64,000 nucleotides of DNA, from the NCBI RefSeq assembly GCF_007971525.1, contig NZ_CP042437.1, positions 2,046,001 to 2,110,000 on the forward strand, written 5' to 3'. The stretch comes from Mucilaginibacter ginsenosidivorax (GTDB lineage: Bacteria; Bacteroidota; Bacteroidia; Sphingobacteriales; Sphingobacteriaceae). Numbering within the stretch: position 1 is the stretch's first letter; every line of letters starts with the position of its first letter. Below are positions 51,862 through 62,018 of this stretch, one piece after another. Both the position numbers and the translations under genes were made by a program. Under the pieces are notes generated by a model. The model did no database searches and was not told where the DNA came from. It saw only the letters and a program-made list of their open reading frames with translations.

Positions 51862-53667
51862 TCAGGAATCCGTTTTATCGCCCCGCAGCAATCTGAACCG
51901 TTTACGGGCTTCGTTTATCCAGAGGCTGCCGGGATAATCGGTGATTATTTTCTGGTACCAGGCTTTGGCATTTATTTTATCATCAAGGTGGTTTTCGTAA
52001 ATGTCGCCCAGCATAAAAACGGCGTCGTCAGCCCAAAGTTCGGTAGGATGATCGTCGAAGATTTTTTTGAGCAGAGGGACCGCATCATTATAGTTTTTCT
52101 GTTGAATGAAAATGCGCGATTTGGCCATCAATATATCGTCGTTAAGGCTGTTGCCCGGGAATTTTTTGTCTATACTGTCTAAAGTCATCAATGCTTTTTC
52201 GGGTTGCTCAGCAAAAATCCGGAGGTCGGCCCGGGCATATATTTTTAATGCACCGCCGGAGCTATCGGCAGCAGTATTGTCATTTATTAACAATAACAGA
52301 TTCAGCGCGTCATTTGCTATTAACTGCGATGTAGCCGCCTTCAATACATCCAGCTGCCCTTTGGCCCAGGTAAAATCGCCGGTATAATAGGCCATTTTTG
52401 CATTACGAAATTTGGCATCCTGGCCTACGTTGGTATTCTCAAAACTTTTTTCAACCTGGCTATACGTCAGGGTAGCTTCCCAGGGCAGGTTGTTCAGCAT
52501 GTACACATCGCCCAAATCAAGCTTACAACCGGCAAGCAACTCGGCGCGGATGTTAGGGATAGTAATGGCGCTCTCCAATAATTTTTGAGCATCATTAAGT
52601 TTGTGGAGTTTAAATGCTTGCAAATTGGCCAGCTTTTGCATAGCAAAAACCGTATTATTATTACGCCCGAATTCGGCAAGCAGGGCAATGTAATCCTGTT
52701 CAAGACCCAGCAGATCGGCAGGAGTGTATTTGCCCGTGGTCACCTTTAAGTTTTTGGTGTTGATAAGCTCGATCTTAGCAGGAATATACAGTGGATTGTT
52801 TGCACCCTTGGCAATAATATATTCATAACCACGAATTGCAGCATCATAAGCCTCGCTGCTGGTAAGCGTTCGGCACAACTCGTAAATATTATTGCCATCA
52901 TCATTTTGCCTGCGGCTGAGTGCCAGGGCCTGGTTAAGCGCAAGGTCATACTCTTTTTGCTGCATATATTGCCAGGTGAGCAACTCAATATAAATGGTTT
53001 GTTGCGGGTCTTTTTGAATACGCCTTAGCAGTGCTGCCTTAAGCAGGTCATAGTCGGCTGCACCTTCAAACACTATGGCAAAATTGCTTTCGGCCTGGGT
53101 AATAAAACTTGGATTTGCCGGTAAAAAATTAAGATACTCATCGGTAAGCGATATCTTGTCGCGTTTAAAACGATAAAGGTTAATGAGCTCATAAGTAAAA
53201 GCTTCGTCGTTTTTAAGCAGTTTACGGCCTTGAATAAATATTTTTATGGCGTAATCAATATTCGCATTCTGGTAAAACTGGTTGGCCAGGCTGGCAATCT
53301 CCATTTGGTCGGCAGGCAGGTTTTTCAGCAGGTCGTCATATATATTGTTTGCTTTATCAAGCTTGCCCTGCTGGGTGTAAATAGTGCCCAGCATTATTTG
53401 GTACTGGCTTACGTTAGGGTGTTTACGCTGCAGTTTTTTTGTAATGCTTTCGGCCTCATCAAATTTTTTGAGGTTTAAAAGGGTATTTACGTAATAGGAG
53501 TAATAGGTTTCGTTGTTTTGCTTGTATAGTTTCTGATAAATTTCGAGCGCTTTTTGGGTTTCGCCATTGGCATTGTATTGCATGGCCAATTGAAGTTCAT
53601 TATCCTGTGCAAACAATGTACAGGTACCCAATAAAACAAAAATAATAATTGCAAATAAAACCCTCAT
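51862..53667 (-). CDS. Tetratricopeptide repeat protein, exported
   Basis: 601 residues with a signal peptide (VLFAIIIFVLLGTCTLFAQ). TPR helices cover most of the sequence (for example YNANGETQKALEIYQKLYKQ at the start, and NDAVPLLKKIFDDHPTELWA then DDAVFMLGDIYENH near the end). It is probably a periplasmic or outer-membrane scaffold. No specific partner is indicated. A perfect -7 box lies five bases upstream of the ATG. Confidence 0.85.
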   Translation of the reverse strand: MRVLFAIIIFVLLGTCTLFAQDNELQLAMQYNANGETQKALEIYQKLYKQNNETYYSYYVNTLLNLKKFDEAESITKKLQRKHPNVSQYQIMLGTIYTQQGKLDKANNIYDDLLKNLPADQMEIASLANQFYQNANIDYAIKIFIQGRKLLKNDEAFTYELINLYRFKRDKISLTDEYLNFLPANPSFITQAESNFAIVFEGAADYDLLKAALLRRIQKDPQQTIYIELLTWQYMQQKEYDLALNQALALSRRQNDDGNNIYELCRTLTSSEAYDAAIRGYEYIIAKGANNPLYIPAKIELINTKNLKVTTGKYTPADLLGLEQDYIALLAEFGRNNNTVFAMQKLANLQAFKLHKLNDAQKLLESAITIPNIRAELLAGCKLDLGDVYMLNNLPWEATLTYSQVEKSFENTNVGQDAKFRNAKMAYYTGDFTWAKGQLDVLKAATSQLIANDALNLLLLINDNTAADSSGGALKIYARADLRIFAEQPEKALMTLDSIDKKFPGNSLNDDILMAKSRIFIQQKNYNDAVPLLKKIFDDHPTELWADDAVFMLGDIYENHLDDKINAKAWYQKIITDYPGSLWINEARKRFRLLRGDKTDS

Positions 53668-53680: not shown

Positions 53681-53758
53681 GGTAATTAATACGAATGCCA
53701 GGGTCACTTTCGGTTAATATCCGTATAAAGGTAACACCGGGTAAAATTGTAGTGACAT

Positions 53759-53790
53759 TTTGATAACGTTAACTAATTTTATCTAATTTG
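53759..53790 (+). promoter_or_regulatory. Possible promoter of the S9-like/two-component operon
   Basis: TTTG at 53759-53762, 20 bases, then CTAATTTG (53783-53790), an imperfect -7 box. The ATG is 29 bases further on. Confidence 0.35.
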
Positions 53791-53819: not shown

Positions 53820-55706
53820 ATGTTTGGGCGTTTAAGGATTTTTCTTTTTATTGTATTTACAACAATTATATGTTCATGCAAACATGTAAAGCAAATTCCA
53901 ATTGCCGATTTTTTTAAGACTCCTGAGAAAACAGTTTTCAAAATATCTCCCGATGGCAAGTACATAGCATACCTGAAGCCATACAAGGATAAACAAAACC
54001 TGTTCATACAATCGCTGGCCGATGGTACCGAACATATGGAAACATCCTTTGATGATTACCCAGTAAACGGATGGTATTTTTGGACTTATAACAATCAACT
54101 GGTTTTTAACCAGGATATTGTGGCAAACGATGGATTTAAAATGTACGCGCTTGATATATCTACGCACCAGATACGTACGATCTTGTCGCTCGAAAAAGTG
54201 AGGGTGAACCTGGTTAACCGCAACAAGCAACAGCCAGACATTATCACCATCAGGATGAACAAGCGCGATCCTGCTAATTTTGATATCTACCGCCTGAATA
54301 TTAAAACGGGCGAACTTTCGCCCTACCTCATCAACCCCGGTAATATAACGGAATGGTTTCCGGATGCCGATGGCAAAATCCGGCTGGTAAAATCGTCAGA
54401 TGGGGTAGATGAAACCATTTTATACCGGCCTGATGATAACTCGCCCTTTAAACCCATTATCCAGAATAATTTTAAAAATTCGGTAAGGCCTATTGCTTTT
54501 GCCGGCTCAAAAAATAACTTTTACGCCTTATCAAATGTAAACCGCGATAAAATGGCGCTGGTTGAAATTAATGCGGAAGATGGAAAAGAACAGCGTACCA
54601 TTTTCAGTAACAGCAATGCCGATTTAATGTATGTTGAGTATTATAAAAATAAACATCGCCTTGAATTTGCCAGCTGGGATGAGGCCAAACCACGAAAGTA
54701 TTTTTTATCGCCCGATATACAACGTTTGTATAAAAAATTGGGCGACTTGCTTAAAGGCAACGAAGTAAGGGTGGTTGACCGCGACAGTTCTGAAAATAAG
54801 TTCATATTATATACCTATACCGATCGCAGCCCTGGCACTTACTACCTGTATGAAGCCCGCACTTGTAAGCTAACTAAACTGGGCGATACTAATCCATCTT
54901 TAATTCCTTCGGAGTTGTGTTCTATGCAGCCCATTGCCTACAAAGCCAGTGATGGCCTAACCATCAATGGCTATTTGACCATGCCACTGGGCAATAAAAA
55001 AACTAATTTACCTGTAGTAGTAATGCCACACGATGGGCCCTGGGCCCGCGATACCTGGGGGTACGACGAGCAGGTGCAATTTTTGGCCAACAGGGGTTAC
55101 GCGGTTTTCCAGATGAATTACCGCGGATCAACCGGGTATGGCAAAGCTTTCAGGAGCGCGGGATACAAGCAGGTAGGTGGCAAAATTCAGGATGATATAA
55201 CCGATGGTGTACATTGGCTGATAGATAAAAAAATAGCTAACCCCAAAAAGATTGCCATTTTTGGCGGCCGCTTTGGCGGTTTTTCGGCATTGTATGGTGT
55301 GTCTTTCCACCCAGAGTTATATAATTGCGCTGTTGTACAATACGGGCTCATTAACTTTTTTACCTATATTAAGGATGCCCCGCCGTTTTTTAAACCTTAT
55401 TTAAAAATGACTTATGAAATGGTTGGCAACCCCGAAACTGATGCTGATAGGCTAAGGGCTATATCGCCGGTGTTTCATACTGATAAAATAAAGGTGCCTT
55501 TGATTATTTTCCAGGGCGCTAAAGATCAGCGCGCCAATATTAGCGAACTGAACCATTTTGTTTACGAATTACGGAAGCATGATGTGGATGTAAAATATTT
55601 TTTGAAACCCAATGAACGCGCTTTTTTCAGGAGTGAGCGTAACCGGTTTGAAATGTATACCGAGATAGAAAAATTCCTGGATTACAACATGGGGGTTAAA
55701 CCATAG
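53820..55706 (+). CDS. S9 prolyl-oligopeptidase homologue lacking catalytic Ser and His (pseudoenzyme)
   Basis: 628 residues. The N-terminus is lipoprotein-like (FLFIVFTTIICSCKH). A beta-propeller (about 35-370, with KISPDGKYIAYLKPY) is followed by an alpha/beta-hydrolase domain (about 375-628, with VVMPHDGPWARDTWGYD and MNYRGSTGYGKAF). The nucleophile elbow, normally G-x-S-x-G-G, reads FGGRFGGFSALYG: Arg484 (CGC) replaces Ser. Asp569 is kept in FQGAKDQRA. The His of the usual DEGHGF motif is Ala601 in NERAFFR. The protein therefore cannot act as a serine peptidase. It is 5 bases upstream of a histidine kinase gene, in one operon with it and a response regulator. Confidence 0.9.
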   Translation: MFGRLRIFLFIVFTTIICSCKHVKQIPIADFFKTPEKTVFKISPDGKYIAYLKPYKDKQNLFIQSLADGTEHMETSFDDYPVNGWYFWTYNNQLVFNQDIVANDGFKMYALDISTHQIRTILSLEKVRVNLVNRNKQQPDIITIRMNKRDPANFDIYRLNIKTGELSPYLINPGNITEWFPDADGKIRLVKSSDGVDETILYRPDDNSPFKPIIQNNFKNSVRPIAFAGSKNNFYALSNVNRDKMALVEINAEDGKEQRTIFSNSNADLMYVEYYKNKHRLEFASWDEAKPRKYFLSPDIQRLYKKLGDLLKGNEVRVVDRDSSENKFILYTYTDRSPGTYYLYEARTCKLTKLGDTNPSLIPSELCSMQPIAYKASDGLTINGYLTMPLGNKKTNLPVVVMPHDGPWARDTWGYDEQVQFLANRGYAVFQMNYRGSTGYGKAFRSAGYKQVGGKIQDDITDGVHWLIDKKIANPKKIAIFGGRFGGFSALYGVSFHPELYNCAVVQYGLINFFTYIKDAPPFFKPYLKMTYEMVGNPETDADRLRAISPVFHTDKIKVPLIIFQGAKDQRANISELNHFVYELRKHDVDVKYFLKPNERAFFRSERNRFEMYTEIEKFLDYNMGVKP

Positions 55707-55711
55707 CGGTT

Positions 55712-57355
55712 ATGCCGGCACAAAAAACTGCTTACCGGAAAAACTTTTTGCTGATCATCATATTCCTGGTGCTCATATCCATAACATTTGTAGTAGCGCT
55801 TTTTATATCGTACAGCCTTACATCTAAATATGTCGAAAATGAGTTCTCGTCAAAAAAGGTAGATGTATTGGAACAAACGTTAAAGCCATACTACGATTTT
55901 TTCCAGAATAAGATCCCCGAGATACAATTTTACGGTGGCTTTTTAGATTCGGCTTCGGCCCGTAAATATGCGTCAACGGTTTTTAAAGAATACCGGTTTG
56001 TAAAAAAGATTGTTTTTTATGATGTGCAGATAGGTACCCGGGAGCCAGTGGTGCTACGGGCAAATAACCTTGATATTTCGGTAAAAGCTATTTACCTGTA
56101 CGGCCAGGGCAAAAATAAAATATGGGGTGCAAGACAACGGCATATAGGCGATGAACCGGATTTTACAGCCATGGCGTCCAAATTGCGTAACTATATTGCA
56201 TTTTCGGATACCACACGGTTGCCCAGCCAGGACGAGATGTATAAAACCTTCTGGGATGTAAAACCTAATAAAATTACCTACACCAATACTTTACGTCCCC
56301 TTGATGTTAAAAACTACCGCGAGCTGCTGCGGGGCAAAACAGTATCTGAACCGTATAAACAAAACATGATGACTTTTTACCTTGAGCCACTTTTGCTAAA
56401 GGTGAAAAATACCCATCATGAGCTTTACCAAAATGTATCTATCCAGCCGGTAGTTTATGACCCTATTGATAGCGAGGGCAACAAACTGGTAACCGAGGTT
56501 TCATTTCCTGGTGCTTTTTCTGATTACAAGTTGTTCTTCAGCTCGGAGCAGGGATACCTTACTGCCGAAACCAACCGGCGCTTTATGCCTATCGGGGCTG
56601 CAGTGTTAGTGATAACGCTTTTTTTGGTTGCTATAGGGTGGTTAATTTACCGCAACCTGAATGTGAATATCAAGCTGTTTAAACTACAGTACGATTTTAT
56701 AAACAACTTTACCCATGAGTTTAAAACCCCGGTAAGCGTAATAAAAATTGCCGGGTCGAATTTAAAAGGCGATGGCGAGCTTACCGAACGGCAGCGCAAA
56801 CATTACGGAAAAATTTTGGACGAAGAAGCAGATAAACTAAACGATTTGATGAACAAGTTGTTATCATTCACCCAGCTGGAAAATAAATCAATCAATATTA
56901 AAAAAGAGGAAATTGTAGTGAATGATTTTGTAGAGCGTTATATTGATACTTTTAAAATTAAATACCCAGACTTTAAATTGAATTATACCAGTAACGGTGT
57001 GCACACTTTTTATACCGACCCGGTGCTTTTGGGTAGTATATTTCAAAACCTGGTTGAGAACGCTTACAAGTATTCGCACCCCAAAAAAAAGGAACTTAAC
57101 ATCAATATCGTACAAAAAAAGGGAAATATTGTGTTCTCTTTTATAGATAAGGGGATAGGTATTCCCCGGCATGAACAGCACAATGTATTTAAGAAATTTT
57201 ACAGGATAGAGAACCAATATAACCAAAACGGGAGCGTAGGTTTGGGTTTGGCATTTTGTAAAGAACTGGTTAATTTTATGGACGGCGAGATAACGGTGAA
57301 CAGTAAGGTTAATGAAGGTTCGGAATTTATAGTTACGCTTCCAAACGAAAATTAA
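55712..57355 (+). CDS. Sensor histidine kinase, RprX-like
   Basis: 547 residues. Membrane helices at about 11-33 and 290-312 enclose a periplasmic sensor domain of about 255 residues. The HisKA box is FTHEFKTPVSVIKIAGSN (about 336-353). The ATPase domain follows with NLVENAYKYS (N-box), DKGIGIP and SVGLGLAFCKELV. No HAMP domain is evident. It is followed after 3 bases by the response regulator and preceded by the S9-like pseudoenzyme, which may act as its periplasmic partner. Confidence 0.93.
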   Translation: MPAQKTAYRKNFLLIIIFLVLISITFVVALFISYSLTSKYVENEFSSKKVDVLEQTLKPYYDFFQNKIPEIQFYGGFLDSASARKYASTVFKEYRFVKKIVFYDVQIGTREPVVLRANNLDISVKAIYLYGQGKNKIWGARQRHIGDEPDFTAMASKLRNYIAFSDTTRLPSQDEMYKTFWDVKPNKITYTNTLRPLDVKNYRELLRGKTVSEPYKQNMMTFYLEPLLLKVKNTHHELYQNVSIQPVVYDPIDSEGNKLVTEVSFPGAFSDYKLFFSSEQGYLTAETNRRFMPIGAAVLVITLFLVAIGWLIYRNLNVNIKLFKLQYDFINNFTHEFKTPVSVIKIAGSNLKGDGELTERQRKHYGKILDEEADKLNDLMNKLLSFTQLENKSINIKKEEIVVNDFVERYIDTFKIKYPDFKLNYTSNGVHTFYTDPVLLGSIFQNLVENAYKYSHPKKKELNINIVQKKGNIVFSFIDKGIGIPRHEQHNVFKKFYRIENQYNQNGSVGLGLAFCKELVNFMDGEITVNSKVNEGSEFIVTLPNEN

Positions 57356-57358
57356 AGT

Positions 57359-58051
57359 ATGAACAAAGAAATCAAAATTGCGCTGGTTGAAGATGACGAA
57401 AACCTGCGTTTCCTGGTTGCCGAACGTTTGCAAACCGAAGGTTACAAAGTGCTGGAAGCCGACAATGGCGAAGATGCGGAAACAATGATACTGGCCGAAA
57501 ATCCTGATATTGTATTGCTCGACTGGATGCTGCCCGGCAAAACAGGGTCGGAGGTTTGCGGCAACATCAGGGAAAGCGGGTATGATAAATTGGTGATTAT
57601 GATGACCGCCAAAGCCCAGGATGTTGATAAGATTGAAGCTTACAACTTTGGCGTATCAGACTATATCACTAAGCCATTTAACATGGACGTGCTTGTAGCT
57701 ATGATTGACAGCAAAATTAAATTCAGCCTGAACAGTGAGAAGGCAGAATCGTACAAGTTTGCCAATATGGAGCACCTGCCTAATACCCACTTACTCATTC
57801 GTGATGGCCGTAAAATTGAACTTACCATATTAGAGAACCGGATACTACTATATTTCCTTAAAAATAAAAACAAGGTTATTAACCGCGAAGAGCTGATGAT
57901 GGAAGTATGGGGCTACAACGCCGATGTAAATACCCGTACCCTGGATATGCACATTGTGCGCCTGCGCAAAAAGATAGAAACAAATGCCGATTCGCCGCAA
58001 TATCTACAAACTGTGCGGGGGATAGGTTATAAGTTTGTGTACAATCAGTAA
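57359..58051 (+). CDS. OmpR-family response regulator, RprY-like
   Basis: 230 residues. The receiver has an acidic pocket (ALVEDDENLR), phospho-acceptor Asp in VLLDWMLPG (about 57) and Lys in ITKPFN (about 106). The C-terminal winged helix (about 135-230) contains LTILENRILLYFLKNKNKVI and the usual ending RTLDMHIVRLRKKIE then TVRGIGYKF. It is the cognate partner of the kinase 3 bases upstream. Targets are unknown. Confidence 0.95.
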   Translation: MNKEIKIALVEDDENLRFLVAERLQTEGYKVLEADNGEDAETMILAENPDIVLLDWMLPGKTGSEVCGNIRESGYDKLVIMMTAKAQDVDKIEAYNFGVSDYITKPFNMDVLVAMIDSKIKFSLNSEKAESYKFANMEHLPNTHLLIRDGRKIELTILENRILLYFLKNKNKVINREELMMEVWGYNADVNTRTLDMHIVRLRKKIETNADSPQYLQTVRGIGYKFVYNQ

Positions 58052-61074: not shown

Positions 61075-61082
61075 TATATTTG
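61075..61082 (+). promoter_or_regulatory. -7 element directly in front of the Rpn-type nuclease gene
   Basis: TATATTTG fully matches the consensus and is followed at once by ATGATG. TTTG lies 17 bases upstream (61054-61057). A leaderless transcript is likely. Confidence 0.5.
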
Positions 61083-62018
61083 ATGATGCACAAAAGTAAA
61101 CCACCTGTTACCGGGAAATATATAGATCCCCTGGTAGATTTTGCCTTTAAAAAGATATTTGGAAGTGAACCTAATAAGGATTTGCTCACTGCTTTTTTAA
61201 ACGAAGTTTTTAGAGGACGCAAACACATTGTTGATTTGGTTTATAATAAGAATGAGCATCCGGGAGATTTAAAAGATGAAGGTGCTGCTATATTCGATTT
61301 ACTTTGTACCGGTGCGGACGGCGAGCAATTTTTGATAGAGGTACAAAGAGGACGGCAAGGATATTTTAAGGAAAGAGCTTTATTTTACACCAGCCGCTTA
61401 ATAAGCAACCAGGCACCAAAAGGCAGACGGAGCGATTGGGCTTATAATTTGACGGAAGTATATCTGGTTGCTTTGTTGGAGGATTTCACATTAGAGATTG
61501 ATACTGAGCTTGGTTACTTACACGATATTTGCCTGTGTAACAGGGAGACCGGTAAAATATTTTACGATAAACTGGGTTATACATATATTGAATTGAGTAG
61601 ATTTGTAAAAACGGAGACCCAGTTGGAAACCGATTTAGACAAATGGCTGTATGTTTTAAAAAACATGAGTCAAATGGATAAGATTCCGGTTTATTTAAGG
61701 AAACCGATATTTGAAAAACTATTTAACATAGCGGAATATACTAACCTGAGCAAGGAGGAAAAAACGATGTACGATAGCAGCTTAAAATACAAATGGGACA
61801 ATAAAAATGTACTGGATTATGCTTTAAATGAAGGTAGAGAGGCTGGCAGACAGGAGGGTATTAAAGAGGGTAGGCAGGAAGGCATTAAAGAAGGCATGGA
61901 AAGGGGTAAATATGAAGAAGCCATTGCAATTGCCAGTGAAATGAAAAAGGAGGGCTTCCCGGCAGTTCAAATAGCAAAGTTCACTAAACTATCAATTGAA
62001 GAGATAGAAAAGCTTTAG
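61083..62018 (+). CDS. Rpn-type recombination-promoting nuclease (PD-(D/E)XK transposase-family protein)
   Basis: 311 residues from the ATG at 61083. N-terminus YIDPLVDFAFKKIFGSEPNK is the family signature. The nuclease core is around HPGDLKDEGAAIFDLLCTGA ... FLIEVQRGRQGYFKERALFY (Asp, then ExQ, about 70-105). The C-terminus has near-identical charged repeats (EGRQEGIKEGRQEGIKEG). Rpn proteins cut DNA and promote recA-independent recombination. They are often called transposases, but there are no inverted terminal repeats or target duplications here. Confidence 0.88.
   Translation: MMHKSKPPVTGKYIDPLVDFAFKKIFGSEPNKDLLTAFLNEVFRGRKHIVDLVYNKNEHPGDLKDEGAAIFDLLCTGADGEQFLIEVQRGRQGYFKERALFYTSRLISNQAPKGRRSDWAYNLTEVYLVALLEDFTLEIDTELGYLHDICLCNRETGKIFYDKLGYTYIELSRFVKTETQLETDLDKWLYVLKNMSQMDKIPVYLRKPIFEKLFNIAEYTNLSKEEKTMYDSSLKYKWDNKNVLDYALNEGREAGRQEGIKEGRQEGIKEGMERGKYEEAIAIASEMKKEGFPAVQIAKFTKLSIEEIEKL

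Follow-up and report, generated by a model that had tools for sequence, protein, structure and literature searches.

An S9 peptidase-like protein without its catalytic Ser and His, encoded in one operon with a two-component system in Mucilaginibacter ginsenosidivorax and its family

Introduction

The mammalian proteins DPP6 and DPP10 are S9 proteins that carry Asp and Gly, respectively, at the position of the nucleophilic Ser and serve as subunits of Kv4 channels, as described in passages of PMC4873792. The fly DPP10, according to the same passages, binds the channel and also cleaves peptides, and the authors found each function to be independent of the other (PMC4873792). Here we analyze an S9-type protein of Mucilaginibacter ginsenosidivorax that lacks the catalytic Ser and His and whose gene is the first of a three-gene operon, S9/kinase/regulator, spanning positions 53820-58051 on the + strand of a stretch of 64,000 nucleotides (nt), hereafter the window (positions 2,046,001 to 2,110,000 of contig NZ_CP042437.1, assembly GCF_007971525.1; the source genome is a single contig of 7.81 Mb).

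As in DPP6 and DPP10, a dead S9 propeller-hydrolase is here tied to a membrane signalling protein, and DPP10 has the Gly at the nucleophile position that is also found in many relatives of the window's protein (passages of PMC4873792; see below). DPP6 and DPP10 are, however, DPP4-like membrane proteins whose binding to an animal ion channel has been shown, whereas the protein of the window resembles acylaminoacyl peptidases, is a putative lipoprotein and has a bacterial kinase as its genetic neighbour. Input to a histidine kinase by way of a periplasmic protein is known from the LuxP/LuxQ pair, in which LuxQ, with a sensor of paired PAS-like (PDC) domains, senses autoinducer-2 (AI-2) via periplasmic LuxP (described in part of PMC8534201). 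LuxP binds AI-2, whereas the candidate partner in the window is an S9 pseudo-peptidase. LuxP has the periplasmic-binding-protein fold. Bacterial protease relatives that take part in signal reception without catalysis are exemplified by CspC and CspA, the pseudoprotease CspC being the germinant receptor of Clostridioides difficile (passages of PMC5809512); these proteins differ in belonging to the subtilisin family, in acting in spore germination and in having no two-component system. The closest solved relative by sequence and by fold is the acylaminoacyl peptidase 5l8s, in which, in contrast to the protein studied here, Ser, Asp and His are all present. We know of no link between this peptidase and a kinase.

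Among the open-licence matches listed, none linked an S9 pseudo-peptidase to a histidine kinase in its title or in the start of its abstract, which is not proof of absence in print. As to a precedent for a propeller acting with a kinase, the main text of PMC8050853, in the part available, does not mention PorZ, and passages of PMC5121618 compare the PorZ propellers with the BT4663 sensor and make no link to S9. Pseudo-enzyme partners are already known; none of the open-licence matches listed shows the combination described here, in which a two-component operon encodes an S9 pseudo-peptidase whose active site was lost many times in parallel.

Results

An earlier reading of the window, made from its letters and their open frames (hereafter, the sequence-only reading), had reported Arg484 in place of the nucleophile, Ala601 in place of the catalytic His, a kept Asp569, a frame open over 628 codons and a kinase gene starting 5 bases downstream. 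All of this was confirmed by our own reading and by a profile alignment in which positions 484, 569 and 601 stand opposite the motifs GGSYGG, GAKDPR and DEGHGF of 5l8s. Of the features of an active S9 peptidase, the protein of the window thus has the fold and the Asp, and lacks the Ser of GxSxGG and the His. The fold-defining regions had been described as otherwise intact, and this also holds: the match to Pfam Peptidase_S9 (PF00326) reaches 137.7 bits (cut-off 22.6), and the predicted structure, a beta-propeller with an alpha/beta-hydrolase domain, is confident (mean predicted local distance difference test score, pLDDT, 90.2) and matches S9 enzymes, with 5l8s as its best solved fold match (E 2.1e-40; template modelling score, TM, 0.81/0.84). 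By sequence, too, 5l8s is the nearest solved structure (E 2e-72), and the DPP10 structure 4wjl was also matched. Judged from the model, the fold of the S9 protein is intact. Its N-terminus, examined by eye, is a putative lipoprotein signal, and a Cys is aligned with the putative lipid-bearing Cys20 in 108 of 119 alignment rows. The source genome holds 28 other PF00326 matches; all nine that were examined retain GxSxGG, so that the loss of Ser is not general in this genome.

The loss is shared by close orthologues (below, g-numbers are genus codes, g1 being Mucilaginibacter, L-numbers are loci and G-numbers are genomes). Mucilaginibacter sp. OK283 (L031, 95% identical) and L032-L034 (86-87% identical) agree with the window in all three residues, Arg, Asp and Ala, and Arg and Ala occupy the same places throughout L031-L035 (84-95% identical). 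The alignment of homologues that the sequence-only reading had proposed thus shows the loss of Ser and His to be conserved and not a sequencing error, the residues of L031-L034 being identical to those of the window. On a wider scale, we counted distinct proteins (n = 169), as some genomes occur in both of our locus collections. Among these operon-encoded S9 proteins, 139 lack Ser and His, six have Ser only, five His only and 19 both. At the Ser position 126 proteins have Gly, 25 have Ser and 18 have Arg, Ser thus being absent in 144; the catalytic Asp is kept in 167 of the 169, and a wide variety of residues is found at the His position. Ser and His are retained in 12 of the 12 unlinked relatives inspected. 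As a separate observation, one genome (G004, L147) holds, in addition to its triad-less operon copy, a second, unlinked S9 relative with a full triad (GGSYGG, NEGHGF).

All losing groups have Gly in place of the Ser, and Arg was found only in Mucilaginibacter rows, including the subclade of the window. Outside Mucilaginibacter and g3, the Ser position is Gly in 70 and Ser in 19 of 90 rows (one unread; the 19 include one unlinked second copy). The Ser codon of operon copies is AGC or AGT, from which a single step leads to Gly but just as well to Asn, Thr, Cys, Ile or Arg. At the nucleophile position the elbow has a strained backbone, which favours Gly; the pattern of Gly or Ser only would therefore point to this strain, and so to selection still acting on the fold. 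The five distinct proteins in which Ser was lost and His remains indicate that Ser can go first. In several Mucilaginibacter loci (L005, L007, L014, L016, L046-L048 and L053) Ser is present at position 484, in GGSFGG or GSSFGG, with no His; these copies look like drift between Gly and Ser.

The sequence-only reading had left it to be seen whether the S9 gene is linked to the kinase in related genomes. The link is conserved across the host family: the kinase gene lies directly downstream, on the same strand, at 184 of the 198 S9 loci inspected, with a median gap of 6 nt (from 179 of the 184 linked loci). In the window itself, the last base of the S9 stop codon is 55706 and the kinase begins with an ATG at 55712, leaving 5 nt, and the kinase stop codon ends at 57355, 3 nt before the regulator ATG at 57359. 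The operon occurs in Mucilaginibacter, Pedobacter, Sphingobacterium and others. Relatives of S9 (E <= 1e-40; any relative, operon copy or other) were found in 191 of 201 genomes of a family sample; in an order sample they were found in 150 of 151 genomes, and the kinase (E <= 1e-30) in the same 150, the exception being G067. Of the ten family-sample genomes without an S9 match, five belong to g11 (discussed below) and the other five (G008, G009, G043, G067 and G080) are also without a close kinase. The completeness of four of the latter five does not exceed 83%, and G008 has a partial regulator (57% identity). G067 has neither S9 nor kinase, nor a regulator match at 1e-60, and is the only solid case of joint absence of S9 and kinase.

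The 14 loci that remain comprise 12 relatives without an adjacent kinase, all with Ser and His, and loci L089 and L213. In L089 the kinase adjoins S9 and is split over two frames. In L213 (G142), as in L247 (G187), both from single-contig genomes of g16, the kinase frame is open and it is S9 that is broken, its two parts lying in overlapping frames. G152 (L214), which has almost the same kinase and regulator as G187, has an intact S9, so that the breaks would be errors or recent events. Independently of these loci, the kinase matches of G117 and G166 contain one TAA each.

The order of events was examined on trees. An S9 tree of 119 chosen rows groups the 110 operon proteins in a single clade (support 100), apart from nine unlinked full-triad relatives. 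Intact operon copies sit on many separate branches within this clade (g8, g18, g6, g21, g22, g13, g25, g15 and Olivibacter), and copies with the intact pair occur in both of its deepest branches, so that the operon is older than the losses. The fewest changes of Ser state number 12 on the S9 tree and nine on a tree of kinase plus regulator, which uses no S9 column; some of the 12 correspond to Ser without His within Mucilaginibacter, and the kinase-plus-regulator tree holds none of those rows. When Ser and His are scored jointly, both trees require nine changes. Across 1000 bootstrap replicates of a 50-row tree, the number was 9-11 for Ser and 8-10 for the Ser-His pair. A single ancient loss was also considered: a tree constrained to a single Ser-less clade is rejected, under the models used, with approximately unbiased test P values (p-AU) of 9.8e-40 for S9 and 1.1e-5 for kinase plus regulator. 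Parsimony alone cannot separate gain from loss, but loss is the simpler reading because the outgroups are intact. The catalytic residues thus appear to have been lost about eight or nine separate times within one bacterial family. The sequence-only reading had held that orthologues in the same operon with a complete triad would speak for recent decay. Such orthologues do exist, 19 of the 169 keeping Ser and His; since they lie on deep, separate branches, however, the losses are old and repeated, and not a recent decay in this strain.

Copies without the catalytic residues are under strong purifying selection. In 18 pairs of copies without an intact Ser-His pair, the ratio of non-synonymous to synonymous substitution rates (dN/dS, Nei-Gojobori) is 0.009-0.073, with 0.044 for the window's own pair; in the same pairs the kinase gives 0.011-0.070, and one pair of intact S9 copies gives 0.017. 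Of 23 pairs, four were saturated and yielded no value, and in several dS exceeds 1, so that the ratios are rough; none is near 1. These ratios, a check that the sequence-only reading had itself put forward, agree with its proposal that the protein has been retained despite the loss of its residues. In a comparison of 83 copies lacking Ser and His with 19 intact operon copies and nine unlinked relatives, 102 sites are conserved in both intact sets, and 73 of them stay at >=90% in the dead copies. Six sites (474, 484, 507, 523, 566 and 601) fall below 60% in the dead copies; two of these, 484 and 601, are the Ser and His positions, and 566 is the glycine three residues before the Asp. The S9 protein of the operon thus combines loss of catalytic residues with a sequence under purifying selection, a feature of pseudo-peptidase auxiliary subunits of the DPP6/DPP10 kind.

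The kinase, whose transmembrane segments were judged by eye, has a periplasmic sensor domain modelled with a mean pLDDT of 83.8. With VIA-align, this model matched the ligand-binding domain of TlpA (Z 10.2, 3.8 Å over 192 residues); sensing domains of chemoreceptors and kinases head the list of matches, two of which (5wbf and 9hvj) are titled dCACHE, the remaining ones being dCACHE domains as well. The best Foldseek match, also to a dCACHE domain, is weak (E 9.3e-3, TM 0.31), with no Foldseek match at E <= 0.001 and no Pfam match at 0.001 for the sensor. Because Z values of 7-8 are common in VIA-align for unmatched models, we call the sensor only dCACHE-like; the model looks like that fold. 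Among 247 class genomes, eight, all from the host's own family, contain a match to the N-terminal part of the kinase (residues 1-323), and no relative of the sensor domain was found outside that family among the 247.

The sequence-only reading had called the system RprX/RprY-like. The regulator does resemble RprY of Bacteroides and Porphyromonas in being an OmpR-type regulator of Bacteroidota. It scores, however, 125.2 bits against a cut-off of 370 with the RprY model (NCBIfam NF051850), and on this score the RprY identity was rejected. A further difference is that the sensor domain of the window's kinase is confined to the host family among the class genomes. The regulator scores higher, 194.8 bits, with the PhoB model (cut-off 296.2).

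The features of the locus are collected in Table 1. Between the S9 gene and the divergent gene for a tetratricopeptide-repeat (TPR) protein lies a 29-base element that is almost invariant in 11 aligned Mucilaginibacter upstream regions. Allowing up to 3 mismatches, the 29-mer has one site in its own genome, to which a shorter form adds one weak site; of 120 genomes of the genus, 113 contain a 20-base core (up to 2 mismatches), mostly as a single copy. In other genera, a 17-base form (up to 4 mismatches) was found within 300 nt before S9 at 23 loci, a count that has no chance control. The element is a putative promoter of the operon or a regulator-binding site, which would make the operon autoregulatory. 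A search for a regulon by means of the element gave no targets, the 29-mer having a single site in its own genome. The TPR neighbour is kept in many genera and not in all: it was found in 74 of the 95 loci L001-L095, in 16 of 18 loci of g14 and in all loci of g1, g7, g18, g20 and g21, and in none of 25 loci of g16, eight of g4 and four of g15, the stretches compared differing in length. An open reading frame at 61080-62018 presumably resembles a transposase of the PD-(D/E)XK nuclease family (Rpn-like).

Table 1. Features of the S9/kinase/regulator locus, in coordinates of the window
Feature	Position	Strand	Remarks
TPR-repeat protein gene, divergent from operon	51862..53667	-	Pfam TPR matches
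Conserved DNA element GGGTAAAATTGTAGTGACATTTTGATAAC	53739..53767	+	within the 152-nt TPR-S9 intergenic region
S9-type pseudo-peptidase gene, putative lipoprotein (Cys20)	53820..55706	+	628 aa, open frame
Codon 484, CGC = Arg, in FGGRFGGF	55269..55271	+	nucleophile Ser position
Codon 569, GAT = Asp, in GAKDQRA	55524..55526	+	catalytic Asp position, kept
Codon 601, GCT = Ala, in NERAFFR	55620..55622	+	catalytic His position
Membrane-bound sensor histidine kinase gene	55712..57355	+	547 aa; HisKA + HATPase_c (Pfam)
Periplasmic sensor domain of kinase, about residues 38-290	55823..56581	+	dCACHE-like predicted fold
OmpR/PhoB-type response regulator gene	57359..58051	+	230 aa; Response_reg + Trans_reg_C (Pfam)

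Discussion

The S9 protein of the operon is very probably a functional pseudo-enzyme. On the basis of linkage, selection and precedent we lean, with some reserve, towards the view that it acts as a non-catalytic accessory subunit, or co-sensor, of the adjacent kinase. The joint absence of S9 and kinase in G067 and a sensor found only within the family also speak for this view. The operon formed first, and the catalytic residues were lost later. The S9 lipoprotein would reside in the periplasm, which by eye both it and the kinase sensor are predicted to face, and may still hold a ligand, a peptide by descent, between its propeller and hydrolase domains; docked on the dCACHE-like domain, it would alter the activity of the kinase through its ligand-dependent opening or closing, much as LuxP acts on LuxQ and as DPP6/DPP10 modulate Kv4 channels. 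Because a partner role of this kind needs no hydrolysis, the active site could be lost repeatedly. An active fly DPP10 that also has a partner role fits an order in which the partner role comes first and catalysis is lost later (passages of PMC4873792). Our judgement is evenly balanced on a broader proposal, that the protein is a bacterial counterpart of DPP6/DPP10: a family-wide co-receptor of S9 fold for a two-component system, in which binding would have evolved on an active enzyme and so released the active site, which would then have disappeared in at least eight parallel events, every one of them a change from Ser to Gly, with a few lineages keeping a putatively active, dual-function version.

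Several observations weigh against a co-sensor or are silent on it. In five of the six g11 genomes (loci L243, L245, L246, L248 and L249; small genomes of 1.3-2.0 Mb), the TPR gene (5/5), kinase and regulator are kept in the same order with no S9 between them, so that the kinase can exist without S9. This genus attaches at the base of the tree, and its state is either a secondary loss of S9 or an older condition. If S9 contacted the sensor, one might look for a trace of its absence there, but the g11 sensor is not clearly relaxed: 2 of 11 near-invariant sites are changed, as against 0-2 in twelve control groups, and its mean identity is the lowest (0.320), as is that of the cytoplasmic part (0.566). 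A first direct-coupling run gave somewhat more S9-sensor than S9-cytoplasm pairs; after matching for entropy, the top 200 S9 pairs divide into 103 with the sensor and 97 with the cytoplasmic part (78 effective sequences), and with the regulator as control the division is 96 to 104. Finally, dCACHE domains usually bind small ligands themselves, so that a co-sensor need not exist.

Some of these points also fit the strongest alternative, namely that S9 is a functional pseudo-peptidase that shares only a promoter with the kinase, as a co-expressed output or envelope protein (a binding protein, a chaperone or an inhibitor) that does not touch it. Operon position and the joint absence in G067 fit co-regulation as well as they fit contact, the kinase without S9 in g11 is what such an arrangement allows, and the coupling analysis gave no clear signal of contact. 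On the other hand, the two genes are kept in the same order, a few nt apart, at nearly all loci, which is closer than a member of a regulon needs to be, and both proteins are predicted to face the periplasm. We regard simple promoter sharing as doubtful, and well behind a role as co-sensor. That the dead copy is instead the regulatory subunit of an active S9 peptidase encoded elsewhere, controlling or scaffolding the live one in a heteromer, seems to us improbable. S9 enzymes often form oligomers, and the other S9 domains examined in the genome, with their GxSxGG, would supply a live partner; the conserved neighbour, however, is a kinase, and the ancestor of the operon copies itself kept the triad.

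Slightly less credible still is residual catalysis through other residues. It draws on the near-universal Asp569, whose retention might equally reflect a purely structural role, whereas neither Gly nor Arg, the two replacements found, is a usable nucleophile, the His position accepts many residues, and positions 474, 507, 523 and 566 have been released too. Recent decay or sequencing error may be set aside as highly improbable: the broken S9 frames of G142 and G187, a TAG in one S9 match (G001) and some weak or short matches in draft genomes (e.g., G079, G123 and G153) speak for it, but for the window it is rejected on the same residues in close orthologues and on dN/dS far below 1, and the loss is seen in most of the distant orthologues as well.

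Many proteins of these genera that would be named S9 family peptidase cannot be peptidases. One operon here offers eight to nine parallel losses, intermediates (five proteins with His only and 19 with both residues, of 169) and a genus without S9, and with these both the order in which the partner role arose and catalysis was lost, and whether that role needs catalysis, become directly testable by swaps of orthologues. The S9 protein would also give a clue to what serves as input for this two-component system, which is shared by Mucilaginibacter, Pedobacter and Sphingobacterium.

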